Shown piece by piece: positions 6,705 to 23,705 of a DNA stretch of 64,000 nt; position 1 is the stretch's first letter, and every line of letters starts with the position of its first letter. The translations under genes were made by a program, and so were the position numbers. Origin of the DNA: Cytophagales bacterium WSM2-2 (GTDB taxonomy: Bacteria; Bacteroidota; Bacteroidia; Cytophagales; Cyclobacteriaceae); NCBI GenBank assembly GCA_015472025.1, contig BNHL01000001.1, positions 3,088,001 through 3,152,000 on the forward strand. The letters run 5' to 3'. Under the pieces are notes generated by a model that saw only the letters and a list, made by a program, of their open reading frames with translations, was not told the origin of the DNA and did no database searches.

Positions 6705-7298
6705 ATGGCTAGAATGCTTCTCGGAGAGAGAATAACCAGTTTAAGAAAAAGCAAAGGCATGTCTCAGGAACTTCTGGCTGAGAATTCCAACGTTTCACTT
6801 CGAACCATTCAGCGTATTGAAGCGGGCGCGGCCGCGCCACGACTTCATACGATTAAAACATTGGCTGATGCGTTGGGAGTACCGGTAGAAGAATTTATTT
6901 CAGCTCCTGAAAATAATGAGTTGAATCAAAGCGATGTTGACGGACTCATGCAGATAAACTTTTCTGCGTTAGCCGGACTTCTGATACCTCTGAGCAACAT
7001 AGTCCTGGCTGTGCTCATCTGGCAAAAGAACAAAGCACTTCCGTTGGTCAATGTGATGGGAAGAAAAATCATCAGCTTCCAGATTATCTGGACGTTGGCA
7101 ACGCTCCTGGTCGTCTTTCTTATTCCGCTTATTCAGTACAGTATCCTCAAGTCTTATGTTATTGGCCGTTTTCCGCCTACCATAATCGTGGTCTATGTCA
7201 CCATGCTTATTATGAATGTGCTGTGCATTGTGAGGGCGGCACGGCAACTCCAAAATGGAAAATCAGATATCTATACTTTCGTTCCAACGCTGTTCTGA
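6705..7298 (+). CDS. XRE-type HTH regulator with membrane domain
   Basis: A 197-residue two-part protein. Residues about 5-65 form a Cro/C1-type helix-turn-helix (GERITSLRKSKGMSQELLAENSNV begins the domain, with RTIQRIEAG as the recognition part). After a short linker, residues about 90-185 contain three to four hydrophobic helices resembling the DUF4870-type tail seen on many Bacteroidota XRE proteins. A membrane-tethered regulator is likely. It begins 35 bp after the RND pump stop, so co-transcription is possible but no shared function is evident. ATG 6705 places the HTH at the extreme N-terminus as expected. Confidence 0.85.
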   Translation: MARMLLGERITSLRKSKGMSQELLAENSNVSLRTIQRIEAGAAAPRLHTIKTLADALGVPVEEFISAPENNELNQSDVDGLMQINFSALAGLLIPLSNIVLAVLIWQKNKALPLVNVMGRKIISFQIIWTLATLLVVFLIPLIQYSILKSYVIGRFPPTIIVVYVTMLIMNVLCIVRAARQLQNGKSDIYTFVPTLF

Positions 7299-12697: not shown

Positions 12698-12832
12698 AAA
12701 GAAATTTTAAAACTGGTTGGTCAGGCAACCATAGTCGATTTGTTGCAAATGCTTTATCGAGCTCAGCAACCATACGACCCCTCTTTGGTCGACACGGTTT
12801 TCTTGGTTTATTTTCCCTATAAACATTCAATC

Positions 12833-12852
12833 CCTGCCTACCGGCAGGCAGG
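12833..12852. repeat. Short palindromic repeat of dispersed type
   Basis: CCTGCCTACCGGCAGGCAGG has 6-bp arms (CCTGCC/GGCAGG) and only one mismatched pair inside. Sequences of this form recur in intergenic DNA of many Bacteroidota, often giving PAGRQ-like residues when translated. Only one copy is in this window. Confidence 0.5.
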
Positions 12853-12892
12853 CCTCTGGGATTGTTGTTCTCACCAAAGTAAGACCCTGGAA

Positions 12893-12907
12893 GGGTCACA
12901 TGTTTAT
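12893..12907. repeat. Small perfect hairpin
   Basis: GACCCT-GGA-AGGGTC is a 6-bp perfect stem with a 3-nt loop, 40 bp from the palindrome at 12833. The two may be parts of one decayed repeat element. No T-run follows, so it is not a standard terminator. Confidence 0.4.
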
Positions 12908-13157
12908 AGCTGTGGTTCACAATGAATTTGTTCGATCCCGGATCGTATGTTTTTCTGACAATCCCTGACGCAATTGGTTTACGTTTCGGTCAACCCCGAC
13001 TGCGCACCGAAGCAATTAATCCGGGTCAATGGCTTGGTTCATCAACTTAGTTATAGTTGCCCCCTCACTTAAATAAAGGGCCGAGCCATTTATTATAAAA
13101 CTCATTAAAGTTGGATTTTGGGCTGAAAACGTGATTTTTAGAAGCTCCTCATTCATT

Positions 13158-13368
13158 GAGGCGTACGCCTCGAGCCTCGAGGAGGCCTCCCCAACCATCG
13201 AGACGTGTGCCTCGACCTTCGGGGCAAAGCGTCTTAGCCATCAAGGCGTGCGCCTCGGGCTTCGAGGCGGACTCCTCGACCGTCAAGGCGTACGCCTCAG
13301 CCATCGAGGCGGCTCCTCGGCCGTCGAGGCGATCGACTCAGGCTGCGAGGCAACTGACTTAGTCAGTC
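13158..13368. repeat. GC-rich 21-bp tandem array of palindromic units (array A)
   Basis: Ten head-to-tail units with lengths 21,21,21,22,21,21,21,20,21,22; a decayed eleventh follows. The consensus is GAGGCGTACGCCTC plus about 7 variable bases (often GACCNTC). The 14-bp core is a perfect palindrome in unit 1 (13158-13171). Unit 2 keeps pairing with an A-T and a G-C where unit 1 has C-G and T-A, and unit 9 has A-T in the centre. Because the core is palindromic, both strands can encode an EAYAS-like heptad, but frames are broken by the 20- and 22-nt units and no good start exists. The array is markedly richer in G+C than its flanks. It lies between the 3' end of the lectin-fold gene and the 5' side of the small membrane-protein gene. 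Confidence 0.85.
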
Positions 13369-13416
13369 GGCAACCCACTCGTACTCGCCTTCTCTACACT
13401 CACGAATAACCATCAA

Positions 13417-14439
13417 CTAACAACGGATATCCATCTTCTTCGTAAAATTCTTCCGTGGCGCAGTTGTCTTCTGAAAAACCTTTTGGATCCCTTCGTTGAT
13501 ATCGAAGCACGCGTTGTCTACCCAGTTGTGAAAGGCCATTGGTGCATCGGGTATGGTGTCAGCTTCCGTCACGCGCGCTACAGACTTGCCGTCAATAAAG
13601 TATTCCACGAGTTGCGGGCTCATCACAATTTTATAGTCGTGCCAGTTTTCATCGAGGGCAGGTAATGGCACAGCAGAAATTTTATCTCCGTTTACAGTGT
13701 GTGCGAAGAATCCGTTGGTCTTATTCTTCGGGTTGCCGTCACTCTGTTGCATAAACCACGCGATCTTCATCCCGAGTATGGGCACGCCATCGGTATTCCA
13801 AAATCCCCAGCCGCGTGAGCCGCCAGTCAGGTTCTCGGCTTTGATGGTGGCTGCGAATGTCACATTGTGCGAACTCGCAAAAGGAATGTTCACGAAGAGG
13901 TCGTAAATAAAATTCTGCAACTCAATCGTGTCTGTGATCTCCTCTACCGGGTAGGGGTTGGCGATCACACATGAAGGTGTCAGCGTAGTGTAAGGACTGT
14001 CATAGATCTCTGAATTAAAATAGTGCTGGTTGTCGGCAATGGGTATCGTGTTCACCAGGTAGTTTCCATCAGGAGTATTGAACTGATGATCGCCAGCCAT
14101 ATCGATGCGCTGAAACCAAAATTCAGGAGACGGGTTGGTGATAGCATATTTTATTTTGCTTTGAAAGTAGGCGTTGCTCACATAGAAGTCCCCGATTAGC
14201 ACCAGCATATAATTAAATACAAACTGAATTTCGAGAGCGAGGTCGCCTGGCGTCACCTTCGGCAGTTTCTTCAGCAGGGCCGTCAATAGCAGCACACAGA
14301 GACGCACCACTGCCACTGCGCTCAGGCCCTCTATTTTCAGGGCGCGTACAGCTGCAATCCATTCCGTCATTTTTTTCTTGTTCATCGCTGCCAGCTCCTT
14401 TTTCAGATCAGGCATCAGCGGTACGGCTTCAATCACCAC
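13417..14439 (-). CDS. Concanavalin A-like lectin/glucanase-fold protein
   Basis: About 340 residues. The C-terminal part (roughly 170-325) looks like a jelly-roll lectin/GH16-like domain: NVTFAATIKAEN, GSRGWGFWNTDG, GMKIAWFMQQSDG, then LDENWHDYKIVMSPQLVEYFIDG and a final FHNWVDN strand. The GH16 catalytic ExDxE is not evident, so binding rather than hydrolysis is likelier. The N-terminal part is helical (a hydrophobic VVRLCVLLLTALL segment about 47-60) and is not recognised. The frame stays open upstream for about 15 codons without an ATG, up to a TAG near 14500; Met9 or Met19 may be the true start. The 5' end overlaps the shortened CPBP gene on the other strand, suggesting a rearrangement junction. 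Confidence 0.6.
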   Translation of the reverse strand: MVIEAVPLMPDLKKELAAMNKKKMTEWIAAVRALKIEGLSAVAVVRLCVLLLTALLKKLPKVTPGDLALEIQFVFNYMLVLIGDFYVSNAYFQSKIKYAITNPSPEFWFQRIDMAGDHQFNTPDGNYLVNTIPIADNQHYFNSEIYDSPYTTLTPSCVIANPYPVEEITDTIELQNFIYDLFVNIPFASSHNVTFAATIKAENLTGGSRGWGFWNTDGVPILGMKIAWFMQQSDGNPKNKTNGFFAHTVNGDKISAVPLPALDENWHDYKIVMSPQLVEYFIDGKSVARVTEADTIPDAPMAFHNWVDNACFDINEGIQKVFQKTTAPRKNFTKKMDIRC

Positions 14440-14965
14440 TTTGGCAATAGGAGCGATTAACAGTGAGAATGCAAAGTTGTTTTTCCGGTTTGGTTTGGGC
14501 TACGGCCGAGAACCGGATAACCAGGAAAATGACTGGCGGCTGACAGGCCCGATCATAGCGGGCGCATTCACCATAGGCACAATAATGTATATGTCAGTCA
14601 GCGTGGTATCGCAAGGAGGCGTGATCAATTCCTCTTTCTTAAAATTGCTGCCGCTGGTACTCTTGTTCTCATTCACCAACGCATGGACGGAAGAGATCGT
14701 GAGCCGCTTCGTTATCGTGACAGGCTTATCTGGTAAAGTGAACCCGGTGGCCATCTGCTGGATATCAGGAAGCATCTTTGGCCTGGCGCATATAGGAGGA
14801 ACACCTAATGGTGTATTTGGCGTGATCGCATCGGGTGTGATGGGAGGACTCCTCGCAAAATCAGTAATAGAAACAAAGTCGATGGGTTGGGCGCTGCTTA
14901 TCCACTTCTTACAGGATGTGGTGATCTTTGGTGCCGGGGCCATGGTGCTGGCGAAAGATTACTAG
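14378..14965 (+). CDS. CPBP family intramembrane protease, apparently 5'-truncated
   Basis: The frame encodes CPBP (CAAX protease/bacteriocin-processing) motifs: motif 1 TNAWTEEIVSRF with the Glu pair, motif 2 FGLAHIGG with His, and a late IHFLQDV. Five hydrophobic helices follow residue 55. Family members usually have one to three more TM helices before motif 1 and a Met start. Here the frame opens with a TTG and poorly hydrophobic residues overlapping the opposite gene, and the first in-frame Met lies inside TM1. The 5' end therefore seems lost or replaced near 14450-14500. Whether a working protein is made is uncertain. Confidence 0.65.
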   Translation: MFIAASSFFRSGISGTASITTLAIGAINSENAKLFFRFGLGYGREPDNQENDWRLTGPIIAGAFTIGTIMYMSVSVVSQGGVINSSFLKLLPLVLLFSFTNAWTEEIVSRFVIVTGLSGKVNPVAICWISGSIFGLAHIGGTPNGVFGVIASGVMGGLLAKSVIETKSMGWALLIHFLQDVVIFGAGAMVLAKDY

Positions 14966-15010
14966 AGAGTTCACGTTCAGCTAACATTGAATAATTAACT
15001 TCACCTCCCT

Positions 15011-15301
15011 ATGATCTATCATATCACTACCTCGCAAGACTGGGAGTCGCAAAAGGATAAGCCCGACTTTCTTCCTGCTGACTATCACAAGGAAGGATTC
15101 ATTCACTGCTGCACCAGCGAACAACTGGCCGGAGTGATGGAAAGGTATTTTAAAGGCAAAACCGGATTGGCACTGCTTCACCTGGATGAATCAAAGCTGA
15201 AAGCGGAATTGAAATTTGAAGCGAGTACCAACGATGAGGAATTTCCACACCTGTATGGCGCCATCAATCGTGAGGCGATTATTGCCGTGAAGTACATTTG
15301 A
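15011..15301 (+). CDS. DUF952 family protein
   Basis: A 96-residue protein matching the DUF952 pattern throughout: MIYHITTSQDW at the N-terminus, the FIHCCTSEQL segment, LLHLDESKL, and the terminal FPHLYGAINREAI. Members are small single-domain cytoplasmic proteins of unknown function, sometimes found as fusions. It stands alone, 45 bp after the CPBP gene. Confidence 0.88.
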   Translation: MIYHITTSQDWESQKDKPDFLPADYHKEGFIHCCTSEQLAGVMERYFKGKTGLALLHLDESKLKAELKFEASTNDEEFPHLYGAINREAIIAVKYI

Positions 15302-15322
15302 GGGCTACCACCTGCATCTTTT

Positions 15323-15356
15323 TTTGACGCCACTCACTGAAAGATGTTTATCTTTC
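15323..15356 (+). promoter_or_regulatory. Candidate Bacteroidota promoter for M13 peptidase
   Basis: TTTG at 15323-15326 and TATCTTTC at 15349-15356 fit the -33 TTTG and -7 TAnnTTTG pattern with a 22-bp spacer. The element ends 19 bp before the ATG at 15376. Confidence 0.45.
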
Positions 15357-15375
15357 ATAAACACTAAAAATTTTT

Positions 15376-17394
15376 ATGAAGAAAGTTCTTTACTACTCAG
15401 TCGTCTTACTGGTATTGGCCGCCTGTAGCACTCCCGATTCTTCCAAAATGAAATTCGTGGATGTGCCGGGGATAGATTCATCTGTAAAACCCGGAGACAA
15501 TTTTTTCCGGTATGTCAATGGCAAGTGGTATGACACGGTAAAGATTGATGCCGACCAGGTAGGAGTAGGCTCTTATAGGTATCTGAATATTCCACAGAAA
15601 AAACTTTTGCAACACATACTGGACAGTGTTTCAAAAAACACCTACGCGTCAGGGACCATCGAACAGAAAGTAGGTGACTTCTATGCTTCGGGCATGGACA
15701 CGACAACTGTTAACCAGCGCGGATATGAGCCGATCAAGCCGCTGCTCGATCGCATCAATGCCATTAAAGATGTACCTGCGCTGATGAAATATGTAGCCGA
15801 TGAATTAAAGGCGGGTGATCGCTCTATCATTGAATTTGGCATCTGGCCTGATAATAAGAAGAGCAGTATCAATATTGCACATGCTACCCAGGCCGGCATC
15901 GGGTTGCCAGACAGGGAATATTATTTCAAGACGGATTCATCAACACTGGCTATACAACAGGCGTATAAAAAATACATCGCTGCATTGTTTACACTTACCG
16001 GCAGTGATGCAGCAACAGCCGCTAAAAATGTTGACATTATCTATGGGATCGAAAAACAGATTGCCAATGTGCACAAAACAAACATCGAACTCAGAGATGT
16101 AAAGACAAACTATAACCGGTTGCCGGTAGCAGTTATCGATAAGGAACAACCCAACATCGGCTGGAGTTCGCTGCTGCAAAATCTCGATGCCAAGACTGAC
16201 TCTCTGGATGTGCCGCAGCTCGCTTATTACGATAAACTGAATGCCTTACTAAAATCAGTCTCTCTCAATGACTGGAAAGTTTTTCTGAAGGCGAGTACCA
16301 TGGGCACCTATGCCAATGCCCTGAGTTCTCCATTTGTAAAGACAGCGTTTGAACTTAATAAAGCATTGTCAGGGCAGGCTGTTCAAAAACCTCGCGCATT
16401 GGTAATGGCAGAAGGCGTTGACCGTTCACTGGGAGAGGCACTGGGCCAGTTGTACGTGAAGCGGTATTTTAATGAAGACGCTAAGAAACGCGTGCTCGAC
16501 CTGGTCAATAATCTGCAAAAATCTTTCGAGAGCAGAATCAGTCAACTCGATTGGATGAGCGACAGCACCAAGAAAAAAGCAAAAGAAAAACTGTATGCTA
16601 TCACTAAGAAAATAGGTTACCCAGATAAGTGGAGAGACTACGACAAAGTGAATATTGACAGGACGAAGTATTTTGAAAATGTGATCTCCCTAAACCAGAA
16701 TGAGTACCAGTTTCAACTGGCGAAATTGAACAAGCGTGTAGATAAGACGGAATGGGGAACAACGCCATCAACAGTTACGGCATACTATAATCCATTTTAT
16801 AATGAGATCGTATTTCCAGCCGGGATTTTACAATACCCTTATTTTGATTTTAAAGCAGACGATGCTATTAACTATGGAGGTATCGGTATGGTCATCGGTC
16901 ACGAACTGACTCACGCATTTGACGACCAGGGAGCACAGTTTGACAAAGACGGCAACGTAAAGAATTGGTGGACGAAAGAAGACTATGAGAAATTCAGGGC
17001 TAAGACACAACAAGTGATTGATCTGTACAGTTCGTTTTCTGTTTTGGATGACGTTCACATCAAAGGCGCTCTGACCGTGGGAGAAAACACAGCCGACAAC
17101 GGAGGCCTGGCCATCGCGTACGATGCGTTTAAAATGACCCCACAAGGAAAAGATTCTGTTAAGATCGATGGCTACACCCCTGACCAACGTTTCTTCTTAT
17201 CGGTGGCGCGAATCTGGAGAGTGAAGACCAGGGATGCATTCATGCGCATGTATGTAAACACTGATCCACATTCGCCTGCAATGTGGCGTGTGAATGGACC
17301 GCTTACCAACTTTACTCCGTTCTACAATGCATTTAATGTGCAACAGGGAGATAAGAATTTCAAATCGGAAAGTGATAGAATAAAGATCTGGTAG
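15376..17394 (+). CDS. M13 family zinc metallopeptidase (neprilysin/PepO-like)
   Basis: A 672-residue lipoprotein endopeptidase with lipobox LAAC after MKKVLYYSVVLLVLAACS. The M13 N-terminal domain starts with the GDNFFRYVNGKWYD motif. The C-terminal catalytic domain has the zinc motif HELTH (His509, His513, catalytic Glu510) and the third ligand Glu570 in GENTADNGG. NPFYNEIVFPAGILQYPYF just before the zinc site is the usual substrate-binding block, and the protein ends in a KIW/CRVW-like tripeptide typical of the family. Length is normal. It is probably anchored in the outer membrane and degrades oligopeptides. Monocistronic. Confidence 0.95.
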   Translation: MKKVLYYSVVLLVLAACSTPDSSKMKFVDVPGIDSSVKPGDNFFRYVNGKWYDTVKIDADQVGVGSYRYLNIPQKKLLQHILDSVSKNTYASGTIEQKVGDFYASGMDTTTVNQRGYEPIKPLLDRINAIKDVPALMKYVADELKAGDRSIIEFGIWPDNKKSSINIAHATQAGIGLPDREYYFKTDSSTLAIQQAYKKYIAALFTLTGSDAATAAKNVDIIYGIEKQIANVHKTNIELRDVKTNYNRLPVAVIDKEQPNIGWSSLLQNLDAKTDSLDVPQLAYYDKLNALLKSVSLNDWKVFLKASTMGTYANALSSPFVKTAFELNKALSGQAVQKPRALVMAEGVDRSLGEALGQLYVKRYFNEDAKKRVLDLVNNLQKSFESRISQLDWMSDSTKKKAKEKLYAITKKIGYPDKWRDYDKVNIDRTKYFENVISLNQNEYQFQLAKLNKRVDKTEWGTTPSTVTAYYNPFYNEIVFPAGILQYPYFDFKADDAINYGGIGMVIGHELTHAFDDQGAQFDKDGNVKNWWTKEDYEKFRAKTQQVIDLYSSFSVLDDVHIKGALTVGENTADNGGLAIAYDAFKMTPQGKDSVKIDGYTPDQRFFLSVARIWRVKTRDAFMRMYVNTDPHSPAMWRVNGPLTNFTPFYNAFNVQQGDKNFKSESDRIKIW

Positions 17395-17421
17395 TGATTT
17401 GAATCAGGTTGTCGGTATTCG

Positions 17422-17490
17422 CGGCTAACAGCCGTTGATCGGGCAGTATTGTTCAAAAATGGCCAATCCATTTTTGACAGTCTGCCCGAT
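17422..17490. promoter_or_regulatory. Compound inverted repeats upstream of FtsX-type permease
   Basis: Two nested pairs, ATCGGGCAG...CTGCCCGAT (17438-17446/17482-17490) and TCAAAAATGG...CCATTTTTGA (17453-17462/17468-17477), form one long interrupted hairpin with a CCAAT loop. A small CGGCT-aac-AGCCG hairpin precedes it. It lies between the peptidase stop and the permease start and could be a terminator for the former, an operator for the latter, or both. Confidence 0.5.
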
Positions 17491-17586
17491 TGCATTTGGT
17501 TGAACGATTTCGCTATCGGCATTATTCTTGAGCCGGATATAACTTTTTGAGGTCTTCAAGCATCTAATACAAAAAAACCTTTCCCC

Positions 17587-20004
17587 ATGATCCTCACCCA
17601 CATCAAGTTTTTTGTGCGCGTCTTCCTGAAGGACAAGTTTTTCTCAGTACTTAATATCCTCGGCCTGGCATTGGGCATTGCTGTGGGTATTTTGCTTTTG
17701 CTTATTCTTCAGCATGACCTCAGGTTCGATAAACATTATGCCGGTTACGATCGAATCTATCGCCTGGGCGGCCACTTGCAAGCCACTGGCGTTGACGTCC
17801 AGGTAGCGCGGAGCGCCCGCGAGTTGGGCTATATCCTGAAATCAGAACTACCCGAAGTGCAGAAGGTAACGCGTGCCAATAACTGGGACCATACGCTCGT
17901 GAAGCGGGAGAAAAAAGGAGAAGAGGTAGCGCAATACGAAGAGGATGTAGTACGCACTGATTCAACTTACTTTCACGTATTCAAGCATGAGTTTATTTCA
18001 GGCGATGAAAAAACATGCCTGAACCTTCTCAGTTCAGTTGTAATTACAGAGTCTACCGCGAAGCGTTATTTCGGAAAAGATGATCCATTGAACCAGGAAT
18101 TGCTGATCGATGGTGACACCTGGAAAGTAACGGCTGTTATCAAAGACCTTCCCAAGAACACGCACCTGAAATTTGATTTCCTTCTATCAGGATTGAGCAA
18201 GAGTCGCGGATGGACGGCTGACCAGGGCCAAATCAAATCGGAAGCATTTTGGAACCCGGATGTGTATACCTATCTGGTAATGCCAGCGAACTACGACCCG
18301 CAAAATTTTGAAACGAAGTTCTCCCCGATCTTCACCAAGTATTTCAAATCCTTTGGCGACCAGGTAGGTGGGAAATACACACCCATCCTTCAGCCACTCG
18401 CTGATATTCACTTTCACTCCAAACTTGTCGCAGATGAGCCGGTAGGTAATCTTTCTTATCTCTATGCCTTCACAGGCATTGGTGCATTTATTATTCTGTT
18501 AGCCTGTATCAACTATATGAATTTGTCCACGGCCAAGTCGGTAAAACGGGCGGGAGAGATCGCGATGAAGAAAACACTGGGTTCGAGCAGGAGATTCCTT
18601 GTGCTTTCGTTTTTGGGTGAGTCCGTTTTTCTTTCGTTGGTTTCTTTACTCCTGGCGGTCACCTTTGTATTTATCGTATTGAGGGCGACTTCATTTAATT
18701 CGCTCATAGGCAAAGATCTGTCGCCGGATTTCATGAACAACCCGTTGCTGCTGCTCGGTTCGCTTGCAGTGGCATTAGGTATCGGTGTGTTGTCCGGTTT
18801 ATATCCTGCTTTCTATTTACCAAGTGTGCCGACACTGAGTGCACTCAAAGGCAGTTTCAAGAATAAGGAGTCCGGCAAGCTCTTACGCAAAGCATTAATC
18901 ACTACGCAATTCACCATTTCTATTTTCGTGGTCGTGTGTACTTTCCTGATGCGTGACCAGATTGACTACGTTCGCAATATTGATCTGGGCTTCAATAAAG
19001 AAAATGTGCTGATCCTGCCTGTTCAGGACACGCTGGTTCAAAATCAATTGACTGCGATCAAGAATGAATTCCTGAAAAATCCGAAGATCACCTCTACTAC
19101 TACTTCTTACAACGTTCCTGGGATGGGCGTAGGCGGTCCTGTGATGTGGGCGGAAGGGGAGGGAGGAATGAAGCAACAGGCCTTCAAAATAATGACTGTA
19201 GCAGATGATTACTTCAAGACGATGAACATTGAGATTGTGAAGGGTCGTGGCTTCCAGCCCGGACCCAAGATTGATGTGGAGAATACTTTTATGTGTAACC
19301 AGGCAGCAGCCAAACTGATGGGCTGGGGCGATGACCCGGTAGGGAAAAAAGTAAAATGGTTTCATGGAAAAGAAGATGGTCGTGTGATCGGTATGGTAAA
19401 GGATTTTAATTTCAACTCTTTGCACAATACTATTGAGCCACTACTGATCGTCAAATCACAAAAGGATGGAGGCTTCCTTTACCTGAAAGTAGCGGGAGAC
19501 CGTCTTCCGGAGACGATGACCTACATTCGTGAGAAGTGGAGCGGCTTTGATCCGAACCATCCGTTTGAATATTTCTTTTTAGACCAACGGTTCAATGAGC
19601 AATACAAAGCAGATGAAACTCAATACAAATTGCTCTCCGGTCTTTCTTCCATCTGCATTTTTGTTTCACTGTTAGGTTTGCTGGGACTCTCGGCCTTCAC
19701 GGCCGCTCAGCGCACCAAAGAAATAGGCATTCGCAAAGTGCATGGCGCCACCATTCCGCATATTATTTACCTGCTGTTCAAAGACATCATGTACCTGGTG
19801 CTGATCGCTGCCGTACTTGTAATACCGGCTGCGTGGTATGTGATTCAGCAATGGCTCGGCAACTTCGCTTACAAAACGGAACTAAATTATTTCACTTTTG
19901 CCCTGGTGGGTTTCCTGGCCATGGTGTTTGCATTCTTCACGGTGGCCTTCCATTCGTTGAAAACTGCACGCACTAATCCGGTGAAGTCGCTGAAGTACGA
20001 GTAG
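17587..20004 (+). CDS. ABC transporter permease, MacB/FtsX type
   Basis: An 805-residue permease with the duplicated four-plus-four TM architecture of Bacteroidota FtsX-like permeases. TM1 is near residues 20-41. A MacB-type periplasmic domain spans about 45-285. FtsX helices lie about 290-310, 345-365 and 385-410. A second TM/periplasmic domain/FtsX block lies about 430-795 and ends in the conserved TNPVKSLKYE. No ATPase gene is adjacent, so it must share one encoded elsewhere. Such permeases act in mechanotransmission or lipoprotein/peptide export. Likely monocistronic, with a compound hairpin upstream. Confidence 0.93.
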   Translation: MILTHIKFFVRVFLKDKFFSVLNILGLALGIAVGILLLLILQHDLRFDKHYAGYDRIYRLGGHLQATGVDVQVARSARELGYILKSELPEVQKVTRANNWDHTLVKREKKGEEVAQYEEDVVRTDSTYFHVFKHEFISGDEKTCLNLLSSVVITESTAKRYFGKDDPLNQELLIDGDTWKVTAVIKDLPKNTHLKFDFLLSGLSKSRGWTADQGQIKSEAFWNPDVYTYLVMPANYDPQNFETKFSPIFTKYFKSFGDQVGGKYTPILQPLADIHFHSKLVADEPVGNLSYLYAFTGIGAFIILLACINYMNLSTAKSVKRAGEIAMKKTLGSSRRFLVLSFLGESVFLSLVSLLLAVTFVFIVLRATSFNSLIGKDLSPDFMNNPLLLLGSLAVALGIGVLSGLYPAFYLPSVPTLSALKGSFKNKESGKLLRKALITTQFTISIFVVVCTFLMRDQIDYVRNIDLGFNKENVLILPVQDTLVQNQLTAIKNEFLKNPKITSTTTSYNVPGMGVGGPVMWAEGEGGMKQQAFKIMTVADDYFKTMNIEIVKGRGFQPGPKIDVENTFMCNQAAAKLMGWGDDPVGKKVKWFHGKEDGRVIGMVKDFNFNSLHNTIEPLLIVKSQKDGGFLYLKVAGDRLPETMTYIREKWSGFDPNHPFEYFFLDQRFNEQYKADETQYKLLSGLSSICIFVSLLGLLGLSAFTAAQRTKEIGIRKVHGATIPHIIYLLFKDIMYLVLIAAVLVIPAAWYVIQQWLGNFAYKTELNYFTFALVGFLAMVFAFFTVAFHSLKTARTNPVKSLKYE

Positions 20005-20089
20005 AAGTTTCTCTGATCGTATTTAAAAAGATTTCAATTGATTTTGGGAACTAGTCAGTTATTACAAACCCAAACCCGCATAACTTGAT

Positions 20090-20097
20090 TAGTTTTG
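20090..20097 (+). promoter_or_regulatory. -7 promoter element for nudK-like gene
   Basis: TAGTTTTG matches TAnnTTTG exactly and ends 26 bp before the GTG start at 20124. No clear TTTG -33 element lies at the standard distance. Confidence 0.45.
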
Positions 20098-20123
20098 CGA
20101 CCACAACTTTATAAGGCCTTAAA

Positions 20124-20702
20124 GTGATCGACAAAGTAAAAATCCTGAAGACGGAAATCTTATCCGACAATTGGTACATCTTAAGAAAGATAACTTACGA
20201 GTACGTCAAGAAAGACGGGACTACTCAAACTCAGACCAGGGAAGCTTACGACAGGGGAAATGGTGCAACCATTTTACTGTATAATAAAAATTTAAAAACA
20301 GTAATCCTCACCAGGCAATTCAGACTTCCAACGTTTGTAAATGGAAACGAGACGGGAATGTTGATTGAAGCTTGCGCTGGTCTTTTGGATAAAGACAACG
20401 CAGAAGATTGCATCAGACGGGAAACGGAAGAGGAGACAGGTTATAAAGTGACCGATGTGCGAAAGATATTCGAAGCGTACATGTCTCCCGGGTCTGTTAC
20501 CGAGATTTTATATTTTTTTATTGCGGAGTATTCAAAAGAAATGAAAGTAACGGAAGGCGGTGGCGTTGAACAAGAAGAAGAAAACATTGAAGTTTTGGAA
20601 ATAGGCATCGACCGTGCAATGGCAATGATCGCTACCGGCGAGATAAAAGACGGGAAGACAATCATGCTATTACAGTATTTAAAACTTAACAACATACTTT
20701 AG
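20124..20702 (+). CDS. nudK: GDP-mannose pyrophosphatase-like Nudix hydrolase
   Basis: A 192-residue Nudix enzyme of the NudK/ADP-ribose diphosphatase group. The Nudix helix lies at about residues 86-109 ([23 protein letters not shown]), with the REtxEExG core intact. The following [21 protein letters not shown] block and the N-terminal [10 protein letters not shown] strand are characteristic of NudK. It hydrolyses nucleotide sugars such as GDP-mannose to the sugar phosphate and nucleoside monophosphate. The start is a GTG (20124), supported by alignment of [18 protein letters not shown] with the usual NudK N-terminus. It faces the next gene convergently. Confidence 0.88.
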
Positions 20703-20736
20703 GCCGAGGAACGAACAACTAACAACCAATACGATT

Positions 20737-21717
20737 TTATTTCGTCACAATCGTTCCCATCTCCACTACTTCGAAATCAGCGGGCTTCACATTTTTCAGT
20801 TTCTGCAGATCATCATTGTCCCAACGCGAGTCAGGTGCCCCGGTCACATAAAAGCTTGTGCCGATGTCCGCAAGAATGATCCCGTATTTCTTCATGGCTT
20901 TTAAGATCACCTGGTTGGTTGCCGAATAAGTGCTCACATCGAAGTTGGCGCGAAGGCGAAGGCGCATGCCCATAGGAGTAGGGATAGCACTGTTGGCATT
21001 GGAGCCATTGACGAGATGACGAGCCGGGCTCAAATATCCTTTCATGCATTTGTCCTTGGACAATGTAAAGCGGATGGCGTGGTCAATCTCACCTGAAGCC
21101 ACTTCATCATAACGAACGAGGCATGGAAAAACAGGCAGGCCTGCGGCATCAGCTGATGTCCAACCCGCCGGACGATAGACTTCCTTCGTGAGATCAAACA
21201 CAGCCCCGGCAGATGCCTGCCAACCGTTACCAGCGACATTCGCGTTGTAGAGCTCATAAAGTTTTTTGTTATCGACATCTACAGCAATCACGTGGCTGTC
21301 TTCAGCACCGTTTCCTTCGATCGGAGCTGTTGTAGGAATAGGATAAGGGCCGGGGTCACTTTCATCCCCATAGTCGTCATCGTAGCTATCACCCTGAAAG
21401 GTGATTTGCACTTTAGGCTGTTTGTCGCACACTACAACAAAGGGGATGCCGATGGTAGCCCCATTGTAGAGACCGCTGCCAAAGTCTGCTTTTATTCCAC
21501 CCGAACCGGAAGCCAGGAAAGTGATAATGTTGTCAGAACGGGAATCTTTCTTGGCGGCAGAGATATCCGTATTGAGCGGATGAGTAGCGGGGAATATTTG
21601 GATTGTTTCCGCACTTGCGGAAGTGTTGGAACAGGCTGAGGGAGTTACGCCTTTGTCGCTCTTCGAGCAACTCAAAATACCCAACAATGTCAGACAGAGT
21701 ATCGAAAAATATTTCAT
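20737..21717 (-). CDS. Secreted lipoprotein of a widespread uncharacterised family
   Basis: A 326-residue protein with lipobox ILSC after MKYFSILCLTLLG. The mature part contains the string of motifs PYPIP..APIEG, DSHVIAVDVDNKKLYELYNA, AGAVFDL, RPAGWTSADAAGLPVFPCLVRYDEV, GEIDHAIRFTL, ARH, PMGMRLRL, KYGIILADIG and PDSRWDNDDL. From memory, close versions of this set occur in secreted hypothetical proteins of Actinobacteria and Proteobacteria. No enzyme class is established to my knowledge; repeated invariant Asp, His and Trp suggest a catalytic or carbohydrate-related role. Monocistronic, with a TAGATTTG element upstream. Confidence 0.8.
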   Translation of the reverse strand: MKYFSILCLTLLGILSCSKSDKGVTPSACSNTSASAETIQIFPATHPLNTDISAAKKDSRSDNIITFLASGSGGIKADFGSGLYNGATIGIPFVVVCDKQPKVQITFQGDSYDDDYGDESDPGPYPIPTTAPIEGNGAEDSHVIAVDVDNKKLYELYNANVAGNGWQASAGAVFDLTKEVYRPAGWTSADAAGLPVFPCLVRYDEVASGEIDHAIRFTLSKDKCMKGYLSPARHLVNGSNANSAIPTPMGMRLRLRANFDVSTYSATNQVILKAMKKYGIILADIGTSFYVTGAPDSRWDNDDLQKLKNVKPADFEVVEMGTIVTK

Positions 21718-21742
21718 GTGTAGAAGTTAAAAATTAACAGGA

Positions 21743-21750
21743 CAAATCTA
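21743..21750 (-). promoter_or_regulatory. -7 promoter element for the lipoprotein gene
   Basis: On the minus strand TAGATTTG matches TAnnTTTG exactly. It lies 25 bp upstream of the ATG at 21717, implying a leader of roughly 20 nt. Confidence 0.45.
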
Positions 21751-21892
21751 AATGCGCGCTTCTATAGTTGAAGCACCATTCATCCTATTCTAAATACAGG
21801 CTGGCGTACAATCTTGCACAGTTGGAGATACGAAATACCTGATTCTGGATTAGAACCGATAACTGAATTATCTTTCAGTTTAAATTGTGATC

Positions 21893-22378
21893 ATGATAGA
21901 CATCCGCCAGTCCACCCCTGAAGACAAAGACCAAGTTGGAGAGATACTGTTGTCCATTGTTAGAAAAGGAGATTCACTCGCCTATCCACCCACTTCGTCC
22001 AAACAGGAATTGGTTGACTACTGGTTTGCTTCTGGTAAGCGCACCTACACTGCGGTGTCTGAAGGTAAAATAGTCGGGACGTTTTTTATGCAAGACAATC
22101 AGCCGGGTCTTGGGTCGCATATTGTCAATGCGGGTTATGCCACGTTGCCCAACAATTACGGAAAAGGCGTAGGTCGCGCTATGGGGCTTTTTTCACTTGA
22201 CGAAGCGCGAAGGTTGGGCTACAAAGCCATGCAGTTCAATATTGTTGTCAAGACCAACGAACGTGCTGTTCGGCTGTGGCAGGACATCGGTTTTAAAATT
22301 ATCGGTGAAATACCTGATGCGTTTCAACACAGCACTCTTGGTTTGGTTAACGCTTACATCATGTATCAGAAACTGTGA
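21893..22378 (+). CDS. GNAT family N-acetyltransferase
   Basis: About 161 residues with the GNAT fold: MIDIRQSTPEDKDQVGEIL at the N-terminal strand-helix, KIVGTFFMQDN for strands 2-4, the acetyl-CoA loop in NNYGKGVGRAMGLFSLDEAR, and a C-terminal TNERAVRLWQDIGFKIIGEIP block. ATG 21893 is preferred over a GTG two codons earlier. It overlaps the next acetyltransferase gene by 4 bp, so they are translationally coupled. The acceptor substrate is unknown. Confidence 0.9.
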   Translation: MIDIRQSTPEDKDQVGEILLSIVRKGDSLAYPPTSSKQELVDYWFASGKRTYTAVSEGKIVGTFFMQDNQPGLGSHIVNAGYATLPNNYGKGVGRAMGLFSLDEARRLGYKAMQFNIVVKTNERAVRLWQDIGFKIIGEIPDAFQHSTLGLVNAYIMYQKL

Positions 22379-22890
22379 GGAAAATCAGTTTCGAAACGGC
22401 TACAGCAAAACATGTCTCTGCTATCGTTGAGCTCCGGAATAGTGTTGCCAACAACCTGGTCGAAAAATACGGGTCTGGCCATTGGAGTCATCAGACTACA
22501 GAAAAGGGAGTAGCGATGGGCATTACCAATACTTCGAAAGTGCTGCTCGCTTTCCTCGATGATAATTTAGTCGGTACACTCCGTCTTGCGCAAAAGAAAC
22601 CCTGGGCCATTGATGTTTCCTATTTCAGCAACTGTAAGCGTCCGCTTTATCTTGTTGATATGGCTATTGCGCCTCCCCTGCAAAAATCGGGTATAGGGAA
22701 AATGATGATCCAGGAATCTAAGAATATGGCTAAGTCCTGGCCTGCCGATGCTATTCGTCTTGATGCCTACGATGCACCTGCGGGAGCAGGAGACTTCTAC
22801 CATAAATGTGGATTTGAATCCCGGGGCAGGGTGATCTACCGAAAGGTAGCATTGCTATACTATGAGATGCTTATCAAGGAAGTGAAATAG
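22375..22890 (+). CDS. GNAT family N-acetyltransferase (second gene of pair)
   Basis: A 171-residue GNAT protein starting at a GTG embedded in the preceding gene's stop region (4-bp overlap). It shows the N-terminal FETATAKHVSAIVELRNSVA, the YLVDMAIAPPLQKSGIGKMMIQESK block with the acetyl-CoA-binding QKSGIGK loop, and a C-terminal AGDFYHKCGFESRGRVIYR. It is not a close copy of its upstream partner. The two are probably co-transcribed; the substrate is unknown. The 21-bp palindromic array begins about 80 bp downstream. Confidence 0.88.
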   Translation: MRKISFETATAKHVSAIVELRNSVANNLVEKYGSGHWSHQTTEKGVAMGITNTSKVLLAFLDDNLVGTLRLAQKKPWAIDVSYFSNCKRPLYLVDMAIAPPLQKSGIGKMMIQESKNMAKSWPADAIRLDAYDAPAGAGDFYHKCGFESRGRVIYRKVALLYYEMLIKEVK

Positions 22891-22973
22891 CTTTCTGCAC
22901 CTGAGTTATCCGCAATGTTAACCTGATAATAGAATAGCTCAATACCAATTGTTAGGTTCTCAATTCCTTTCGG

Positions 22974-23288
22974 AAACATTCCGGCATGCTGTGGAAAACT
23001 TTCCATGACATTTTGAAATGTTTCCGCACGATTTTGAAAAGTTTCCGCATGATTTGGAAAGCTTTACTTACTTCATGGAAAGCTTTCAATAGCCTGATAA
23101 AAAGTTTCCGCAACTTGTTGAAAACTTTCAATGTATTGCTGTAATGTTTACGAACCGTATTGAAAATCTTACATTAGTTATTGAAACCTTTACAGACGTT
23201 GTGTAAAGTTTTCAACAAGCCATGGAAAACCTTCAACAAGCCGTGTAAACATTTACACATGGTTTCGAAAGGCTTCCCCGACTCGAAT
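22974..23288. repeat. AT-rich 21-bp tandem array of palindromic units (array B)
   Basis: Fifteen consecutive units, each exactly 21 nt with no indels, starting at 22974 and stepping by 21. Units begin AAA in 14 of 15, and AAANNTTT is exact in 10 of 15. Many are flanked to give a 14-bp palindrome. Arms vary but stay paired: TGGAAA/TTTCCA (22992-23005), TTGAAA/TTTCAA (23118-23131), TGTAAA/TTTACA (23244-23257, extending to 7-bp arms). One frame reads as heptads K-x-F-x-x-x-x but has stops at 23142 and 23175. The array fills the gap between the second acetyltransferase and trmO, ending 24 nt before the trmO ATG. Phased A-tracts every two helical turns should also bend the DNA. Confidence 0.88.
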
Positions 23289-23312: not shown

Positions 23313-23705
23313 ATGGAAGCAACCCTGAAATTCATAGGAATAGTTAATTCCTCTCTCAAGACAATAGAGGACTGTCCTTTGCAAGAAAGCGAGAACGCGC
23401 CTGAGGCGACACTGGTTATTCACCCTGAGTTTGCAGAAGGTATCAAAAACATAAAAGCAGGTTCGGAGGTTGTATTGCTCACGTGGCTTCACCAGGCCGA
23501 CAGGTCAGTTATTAAATGCGTGCCTCGCCATAATTATGACGCGCCCAAGATTGGCGTTTTTTCAACTCGCTCACCAGATCGCCCCAATCCTATCGGACTG
23601 CATTCGGCTAAAGTCATTTCCATAAAAGACGGAATGATCAAAGTATCGGGATTGGAAGTTCTTGATCAAACTCCGCTGATCGACATCAAGCCCGTCATTC
23701 GGTAA
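23313..23705 (+). CDS. trmO: tRNA (t6A37) N6-methyltransferase TrmO
   Basis: The 130-residue protein is a YaeB/VirR-type small beta-barrel (UPF0066/TsaA-like), known as TrmO, which methylates N6-threonylcarbamoyladenosine 37 in tRNA using S-adenosylmethionine. The signature GVFSTRSPDRPNPIGLHSAK is at residues 81-100, and the end motif LEVLDQTPLIDIKPVI is intact. The start is ATG 23313. An in-frame ATG at 23181 would add 44 residues encoded entirely by the repeat array and lacks homology to the family, so it is rejected. A bidirectional terminator follows at 23728. Confidence 0.92.
   Translation: MEATLKFIGIVNSSLKTIEDCPLQESENAPEATLVIHPEFAEGIKNIKAGSEVVLLTWLHQADRSVIKCVPRHNYDAPKIGVFSTRSPDRPNPIGLHSAKVISIKDGMIKVSGLEVLDQTPLIDIKPVIR

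Follow-up and report, generated by a model that had tools for sequence, protein, structure and literature searches.

The DNA analyzed here, called the window, is a stretch of 64,000 nucleotides from Cytophagales bacterium WSM2-2 (contig BNHL01000001.1, positions 3,088,001-3,152,000, forward strand). It carries two tandem arrays, A and B, whose palindromic (dyad) units recur every 21 base pairs (bp). At a probability of roughly 40%, we regard these arrays and their relatives in the genome as dispersed non-coding elements whose rows likely provide a putative dimeric protein with helically phased sites for binding. The two loci contain the following features:

13121..13129, plus strand: boundary motif GGCTGAAAA beside array A, matching RGCTGAAAA
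13158..13380, no strand: array A, about 11 tandem 21-bp units with arms GAGGCG..CGCCTC, a spacer of about 7 bp, +1/-1 slips, and a weak last unit
13158..13171: perfect 14-bp palindrome GAGGCGTACGCCTC in array A
13417..14439, minus strand: open reading frame (ORF) of 340 amino acids without Pfam match, right neighbour of array A
22375..22890, plus strand: GNAT acetyltransferase (PF00583, by Pfam), left neighbour of array B
22971..23278, no strand: array B, arms TGGAAA..TTTCCA with core GAAANNTTTC; its 15 units keep a single 21-bp register, and each of the six frames contains stops
22992..23005: array B unit fully matching the symmetric consensus, TGGAAAACTTTCCA
23244..23257: array B unit with a different symmetric arm pair, TGTAAACATTTACA
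23313..23705, plus strand: TrmO-like protein (PF01980, by Pfam), right neighbour of array B

The units of array A start at 13158, 13179, 13200, about 13222 (weak), 13243, 13264, 13285, 13306, 13326, 13347, and 13367, and their palindrome, put at 14 bp earlier, reaches about 18 bp (TCGAGGCG-NN-CGCCTCGA). Array B is tight only in GAAANNTTTC, and shifting its unit at 23139 by 1 base to the right slightly improves the fit to the consensus. Tandem Repeats Finder detected array A at periods 21, 41, and 42, and array B only in a short part.

We scored chains of dyads at fixed spacing, with slips allowed. Arrays B and A reached chain scores of 48.4 and 30.5, respectively, while the maximum was 21.0 in order-3 Markov sequence (12 runs of 500 kb) and 21.5 in 800 kb of evenly spaced stretches of the organism's own genome. 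Within periods 15-28, chains over the threshold were found in this genome only at 21 (three batches, 1.19 Mb of stretches plus the window); outside that range, period 42 gave chains, and periods 14 and 37 gave one each, the one at 14 within an A array. With a cruder gapless count, only B stood clearly above other periods, and A, broken by slips, lay at background.

Arrays A and B are not isolated, as the genome (5.55 Mb, four contigs) holds at least ten such loci, labelled below by family and position in kb. Family A has five loci at 1366, 2394, 3101 (window), 3821, and 5187 kb, family B has three at 436, 1304, and 3111 (window) kb, and family C, with arms GAGTCA, has two, at 2074 kb (found without sequence query, with a 33-bp match already in the similarity search) and at 2366 kb (found by similarity). 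Ten is a minimum: the scan misses weak arrays, B_436 falls below the threshold used in the dyad-chain scan, and 53 roughly even 20-kb stretches (1.06 Mb) contained one array. As the left arm of family C is GAGTCA and the right arm is mostly TGCCTC and sometimes TGACTC, the change from GAGGCG/CGCCTC is only partly symmetric. The arrays sit between larger ORFs, and small ORFs overlap at least nine of the ten, judged from ORF calling alone. The C array at 2074 kb is traversed by an ORF of 154 amino acids on the minus strand (L238, 3854-4318).

In the random-tandem control, all units had their 21 columns permuted in the same way, which keeps the tandem repeat and loses the dyad. The symmetry of the window's array A was reached in 0 of 1000 permutations, as was that of A_5187 and of C_2074, and the symmetry of A_3821 and of A_1366 in 0 of 2000 each. 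For the window's array B, the permutation gave p = 0.0005, for B_1304 p = 0.0015, for A_2394 p = 0.001, and for B_436 p = 0.03; with p = 0.085, the symmetry of C_2366 was not significant. In the tests of the window's array A, A_5187, C_2074, A_2394, B_436, and C_2366, the units had been chosen by likeness to a symmetric consensus. The earlier note had described two 21-bp tandem arrays of about 14-bp dyads at these places, which the chain scores and permutation controls confirm, and symmetry beyond that of random tandem repeats was borne out for nine of the ten arrays. The design that the note saw shared by A and B holds up: within the own DNA sampled, it is specific to period 21, and it recurs with other sequences in other Bacteroidota. 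Its expectation of one consensus per locus failed: the three families are dispersed over five, three, and two loci, and some loci are block copies.

The units are not conserved evenly. Column information for array A, array B, and the Galbibacter arrays described below was 1.45, 1.17, and 1.18 bits in the arms, 0.75, 0.44, and 0.28 bits in the spacer, and 0.25, 0.06, and 0.24 bits in the two central letters, respectively, and in G084/G289 (11 units), it was 1.48 bits in the arms, 0.92 in the centre, and 0.60 in the spacer. As the units behind these figures were chosen by likeness to the arm consensus, which favours the arms and thus counts against our interpretation, homologous arrays were compared pairwise as a check. 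Five pairs were compared, L003 being part of three of them and the L129-L142 alignment containing several gaps. Substitutions in arms versus spacer plus centre numbered 5/115 vs 16/96 (p = 0.003), 18/129 vs 35/95 (p = 7e-5), and 17/137 vs 52/139 (p = 1e-6, the least certain alignment) in three pairs. In these three of five comparisons, the arms changed clearly more slowly than the other letters, and the arrays are therefore likely rows of docking sites for a putative DNA-binding protein that acts as a pair. Their spacing is kept though the spacers look random, with all 15 units of the window's array B in one register.

Arm co-variation within units had z values of +2.3 in A, -1.8 in B, -3.3 in Galbibacter, -0.8 in G126, and +1.5 in G084/G289, the positive correlations being weak. 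Arms that vary independently or oppositely, as in B, Galbibacter, and G126, argue against hairpin selection and template-switch repair as a general cause, and independent variation suits separate half-sites of a dimer. The compensatory drift inside units that had been proposed was hence not confirmed (z = +2.3 in A, -1.8 in B), and maintenance by a self-templating or hairpin process, which predicts arms co-varying within units, finds no such signal in B or Galbibacter.

B-DNA has about 10.5 bp per turn, so 21 bp correspond to two helical turns. A 21-bp row would thus form a platform on which putative dimers line up next to one another along a single face of the helix. The protein may be a homodimer reading 6-N2-6 half-sites, selection for its binding would slow the change of the arms, and the phasing would let adjacent dimers touch. 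Such a platform might serve the host, in local silencing, insulation, or nucleoid folding, or it might serve the spread of the element. Among the options listed earlier, a protein that reads spacing and symmetry fits best with the arm conservation, the kept spacing, and the independent arms in B. Phased A-tract curvature was considered as a common cause and rejected by a composition argument (family A is GC-rich) rather than by a curvature calculation.

Several observations weigh against a protein-bound platform. No candidate for the putative array-binding protein was found, and the Pfam-scanned neighbours of eight of the ten arrays (not always on both sides) have no gene in common. The genome has 10 exact GAGGCGNNCGCCTC sites, every one of them within the five A arrays, and 29 of the 32 sites with at most one mismatch lie there too; solitary sites are thus lacking, which does not suit an ordinary regulator with scattered operators. 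The register of array A is broken by several +/-1 slips. In G126, the centre is conserved like the arms (arms 1.43, centre 1.56, spacer 0.58 bits). The remaining two homologous pairs showed no significant difference between arms and spacer plus centre (19/121 vs 22/86, p = 0.058, borderline; 8/132 vs 10/120, p = 0.32). Hairpin-like co-variation across the spacer was seen in L164 (z 3.7), L131 (z 2.9), and to some extent in G289 and L103, in a run that chose units by palindromy and included stray units from array ends; the within-unit figures above come from a later run that replaced it. Six of the ten own arrays (A of the window, A_3821, A_1366, A_2394, B_1304, and C_2074) have a stop-free frame. 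Families A and B formed no array in 57 relatives, 35 of them of the same genus (in most genomes, 12 B candidates were scored); a selfish or neutral element would account for this no less well than a function in the host. Finally, AAANNTTT repeated three times at 21 bp was present in 21 of 395 genomes of the phylum, and its backward control, itself a dyad, likewise in 21 of 395, counted by eye.

The bare pattern, being no commoner than its control, is therefore no evidence, and it also picks up coding repeats and plain variable-number tandem repeats (VNTRs). A scan of named records for AAANNTTT gave at least 120 stretches, 99 with six or more usable units and 21 dropped for fewer. Among the matches listed, to which the statements of this paragraph refer, 21-bp dyad rows were carried by Galbibacter mesophilus and Galbibacter sp. 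EGI 63066, with CCTAAA arms, by Flavobacterium sp. NRK F7, with two arm versions, and by metagenome-assembled genomes (MAGs) of Tannerella and Prevotellaceae (both with a stop-free frame) and Chitinophagales; one Prevotellaceae MAG had three arm families. The matches also included Treponema, Planctomycetaceae, and Acidobacteria MAGs, not checked for binning errors. With the phylum of the 99 arrays assigned from record titles, the outer consensus dyad of the 15 Bacteroidota arrays that have stops in all frames was 0.56 vs 0.41 permuted (p = 0.017), and that of the 34 Bacteroidota arrays with an open frame 0.48 vs 0.28 (p < 0.0005). It was not above permutation in the 6 non-Bacteroidota arrays with stops (p = 0.35) and weak in the 44 non-Bacteroidota arrays with an open frame (0.36 vs 0.26, p = 0.015).

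The Galbibacter arrays keep their spacing well, with 50 of 59 steps equal to 21 and 7 more to 42 or 63, at a spacer identity of 0.29-0.36 in four arrays. Their arms, C(C/G)TAAA..TTTA(G/C)G, were found in Galbibacter, in 3 of 395 phylum genomes (two families), and in a Chitinophagales MAG, and the backward control in 2 of 395 genomes, with 4 to 12 matches per genome for the arms vs 1 for the control. One Galbibacter array (L172, 5826-7377) is flanked by a gene for a ParD antitoxin (PF03693) on one side and by a SLATT_5 gene (PF18160) on the other. Scanning 1.06 Mb of the listed loci outside the pattern arrays gave 21-bp dyad chains in three loci and a 22-bp chain in one; the AT-rich contig L110 had dyad chains at most other periods. 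Pattern-agnostic scans of 400 kb each in G418 and G433 found no 21-bp chain (single matches at 20 and 33), and in AT-rich G289, matches spread over many periods and the gapless scan missed the known array. A weak B-like match in G431 was not an array, the B_436 locus of seven relatives contained no array and no common upstream sequence visible by eye, and plasmid and phage records had no match to arrays A or B; a viral scan for the AAANNTTT pattern gave 24 stretches. The design thus recurs in other Bacteroidota, with arm sequences that turn over fast.

Three side observations belong to these scans. The backward control TTTNNAAA, three times at 21 bp, matched 21 times in G230, 14 times in G255, and 10 times in G160, and these matches may represent further arm families. 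Porphyromonas canoris (L168, 6281-7063) has more than 30 mostly near-identical units at 22 bp with a weaker dyad. The spacer is palindromic too, so that both axes are symmetric, in L158 (about 2550-2780), L092 (about 500-880), and L130 (about 6980-7190), with GGGGAATTCCCC beside AAAGCTTT and ACCGGT beside AAACTTT.

Could the arrays be read by nothing at all? A palindromic 21-mer might have been amplified by slippage, recombined to other loci, and left to decay as a neutral intergenic minisatellite. The larger length differences between homologous arrays, 20, 21, or 42 bases, the alternate units that decay in 42-bp higher-order patterns, the failure to find A and B in the relatives, and the two of five pairs without a significant arm/spacer difference all suit such an origin. 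Neutral decay does not account for the unequal loss of arms and spacer in the other three pairs and in the column information, for a spacing that is held though the spacers look random, or for the recurrence of the design in other genomes, where the arms are unrelated, and we consider this explanation possible but somewhat doubtful.

Descent and copying clearly shaped the arrays. A_1366 and A_3821 are 90% alike over 195 bases in different surroundings, from which we conclude that whole arrays are copied between loci as blocks. A_1366 and C_2074 have about 380 bp of right flank in common and different arms; the outer part of this flank contains a repeat present elsewhere in the genome. B_436 and B_1304 share a 56-bp flank, the best further match of which lies beside A_2394 (among 1.58 million positions, from 0.79 Mb of own DNA read on both strands). 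The motif RGCTGAAAA occurs within 80 bp of five of the ten arrays and in all three families (5 matches in 20 flanks of 80 bp; 0.08 expected), namely beside the window's array A, one other A array, two B arrays, and one C array, and it points towards the array at the window's A and away from it at the other four. The motif was counted only after it had caught our attention, the A_1366/C_2074 and B_436/B_1304 pairs are not independent, and the direction at the window's A is opposite; we therefore say only that the A, B, and C arrays are probably, not provenly, one type of element. The earlier statement that A and B have no sequence in common thus holds for the units and fails for the flanks, where RGCTGAAAA occurs in all families. 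Likewise, the shared design behind the proposal of one mechanism in place of descent of one element is borne out, but descent plays a part, as seen from the dispersed families, the block copies, and the flank common to A and C.

Two further repeats lie near the arrays. One type, CACGCTAAGTCGCCAAGCCGCTAAGCGAATGCAAATTTTCTCTGCG, is found beside several arrays and at further genome sites (L003, 1850-2100; L238, 4440-4700; L005, 1760-1860). The other is a separate dispersed intergenic hairpin-rich repeat to the left of array A (window 12803-12955, ATAAACATTCAATCCC ... GGGTC ... TGTTTATAG), with related pieces in L004, L007, and L008, and beside the C array in L308.

Dispersed copies, the common flanks of both pairs, and a flank motif in three families are also what internal repeats of a non-autonomous mobile element would display, either MITE-like or mobilised as single-stranded hairpins, with the palindromes recognised by a transposase; BrickBuilt, which has a leader, a tail, and IS5-like ends, offers a precedent (PMC4596501). 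At the arrays, neither terminal inverted repeats nor target duplications were identified, though terminal repeats were not searched systematically, the flank motif is absent at five of the ten arrays, and recognition of hairpins would favour co-varying arms, which were not seen in B. We consider a mobile element of this kind rather unlikely.

That the arrays act as RNA, transcribed into rows of small hairpins with a 7-bp stem and a 7-nucleotide loop, is very unlikely. A and B fold better than shuffled sequences (z -5.1 and -4.7), as any palindromic array would owing to its dyads, and the co-variation across the spacer in L164 and L131 points the same way. G126 has an excess of G.T over A.C (26 vs 2 in the core), though this is one consensus mismatch repeated many times. 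A and B have no such excess, with G.T vs A.C of 12 vs 20 in the core and 18 vs 21 in the spacer of A, and 16 vs 20 and 15 vs 21 in B, so that no strand looks selected as RNA; B moreover lacks positive co-variation, and the window has no Rfam match at gathering scores. RNA hairpins and quasi-palindrome template switching, both of which predict positive within-unit co-variation that is absent in B and Galbibacter, were rejected as candidates, and the hairpin reading drawn from L164 did not generalise.

Decayed heptad-coding DNA, in which 21 bp would be seven codons of a coiled-coil repeat, is the least credible of the explanations: a 21-bp spacing preserves a frame, and 78 of the 99 AAANNTTT arrays elsewhere (among the matches listed) have a stop-free one, as do the six own arrays named above, but stops in six frames in the window's B, B_436, A_5187, C_2366, and four Galbibacter arrays, and +/-1 slips in A, make this earlier suggestion unlikely for both arrays of the window.

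The neighbouring genes encode GNAT, TrmO, TonB receptor, thioredoxin-like, AraC, helix-turn-helix (HTH), methyltransferase, and other proteins, and ORF calling put the neighbours of eight arrays in tandem at six, convergent at one, and ambiguous at one. Neighbours with nothing in common and these orientations make gene-specific regulation unlikely. Among the Pfam-scanned neighbours, no rep initiator gene and no ParA/ParB genes were present, and no cas match either, the rest of the genome not having been searched for cas.

Known repeat systems differ from the arrays in one respect or another. Replication iterons are direct repeats, about 17-22 bp long and helically phased, that are read by a Rep protein, whereas the array units are dyads with many chromosomal copies. 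CRISPR repeats have about 21 bp or more and longer unique spacers, unlike the 14-bp repeat and 7-bp spacer found here. BrickBuilt of Porphyromonas gingivalis is the closest known system, with 19 intergenic copies in one strain, imperfect 23-nucleotide units, a leader and a tail, gain and loss of whole units, and, in the accessible part of its description, dyad symmetry mentioned once, in passing (PMC4596501). Like it, the arrays are dispersed intergenic rows of imperfect tandem units in the same phylum, confined to one or a few species, with whole-unit gains or losses and, at some arrays, shared flanking sequences; BrickBuilt differs in its 23-bp units (here 21), its single consensus, and its IS5-like terminal repeats, and has no arm sequence in common with the arrays. 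Reading the consensus given there with favourable letters at its R/Y positions yields a perfect 12-bp palindrome of six pairs, TCTCATATGAGA; such a palindrome occurs in 0.6% of random 23-mer tandems without favourable choice.

In its way of working, the nearest system may be the F-plasmid centromere sopC/parS, a row of dyads with twelve 43-bp tandem repeats and ten 16-bp inverted repeats bound by ParB (PMC6238139). This analogy has its limits, as sopC/parS is one plasmid site with its own partition system and about twice the spacing, whereas the arrays occupy ten chromosomal loci. Dispersed non-coding satellite families exist in prokaryotes but are rare, the examples being Leptospira interrogans and Methanocella conradii; these have long repeats, and the accessible portion of that survey does not describe palindromes, 21-bp phasing, or Bacteroidota families (PMC6749651). 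We found no description of 21-bp palindrome arrays in Bacteroidota in literature whose coverage largely leaves out subscription papers.

Beyond the proposed phased binding platform of this one genome, we tentatively suggest, as an unlikely extension, a phylum-wide class of chromosomal phased dyad arrays. Its members would be composite elements in which the boundary is fixed and the row of palindromes, spaced at exactly two helical turns, can be exchanged; the arms would co-evolve with a fast-evolving putative dimeric protein forming a filament along the array, giving species-specific lock-and-key sets. What stays constant is the geometry, 21 bp and a 6-N2-6 dyad, and the sequence differs from family to family and from genome to genome; even two copies with a common flank differ in it. 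Bacterial intergenic repeats are usually classed by sequence, and a survey of that kind would overlook that A, B, and C are likely kin. The geometry provides a sequence-independent search rule for more arrays, and the arrays make the idea of chromosomal proteins recognising phased symmetry directly testable.

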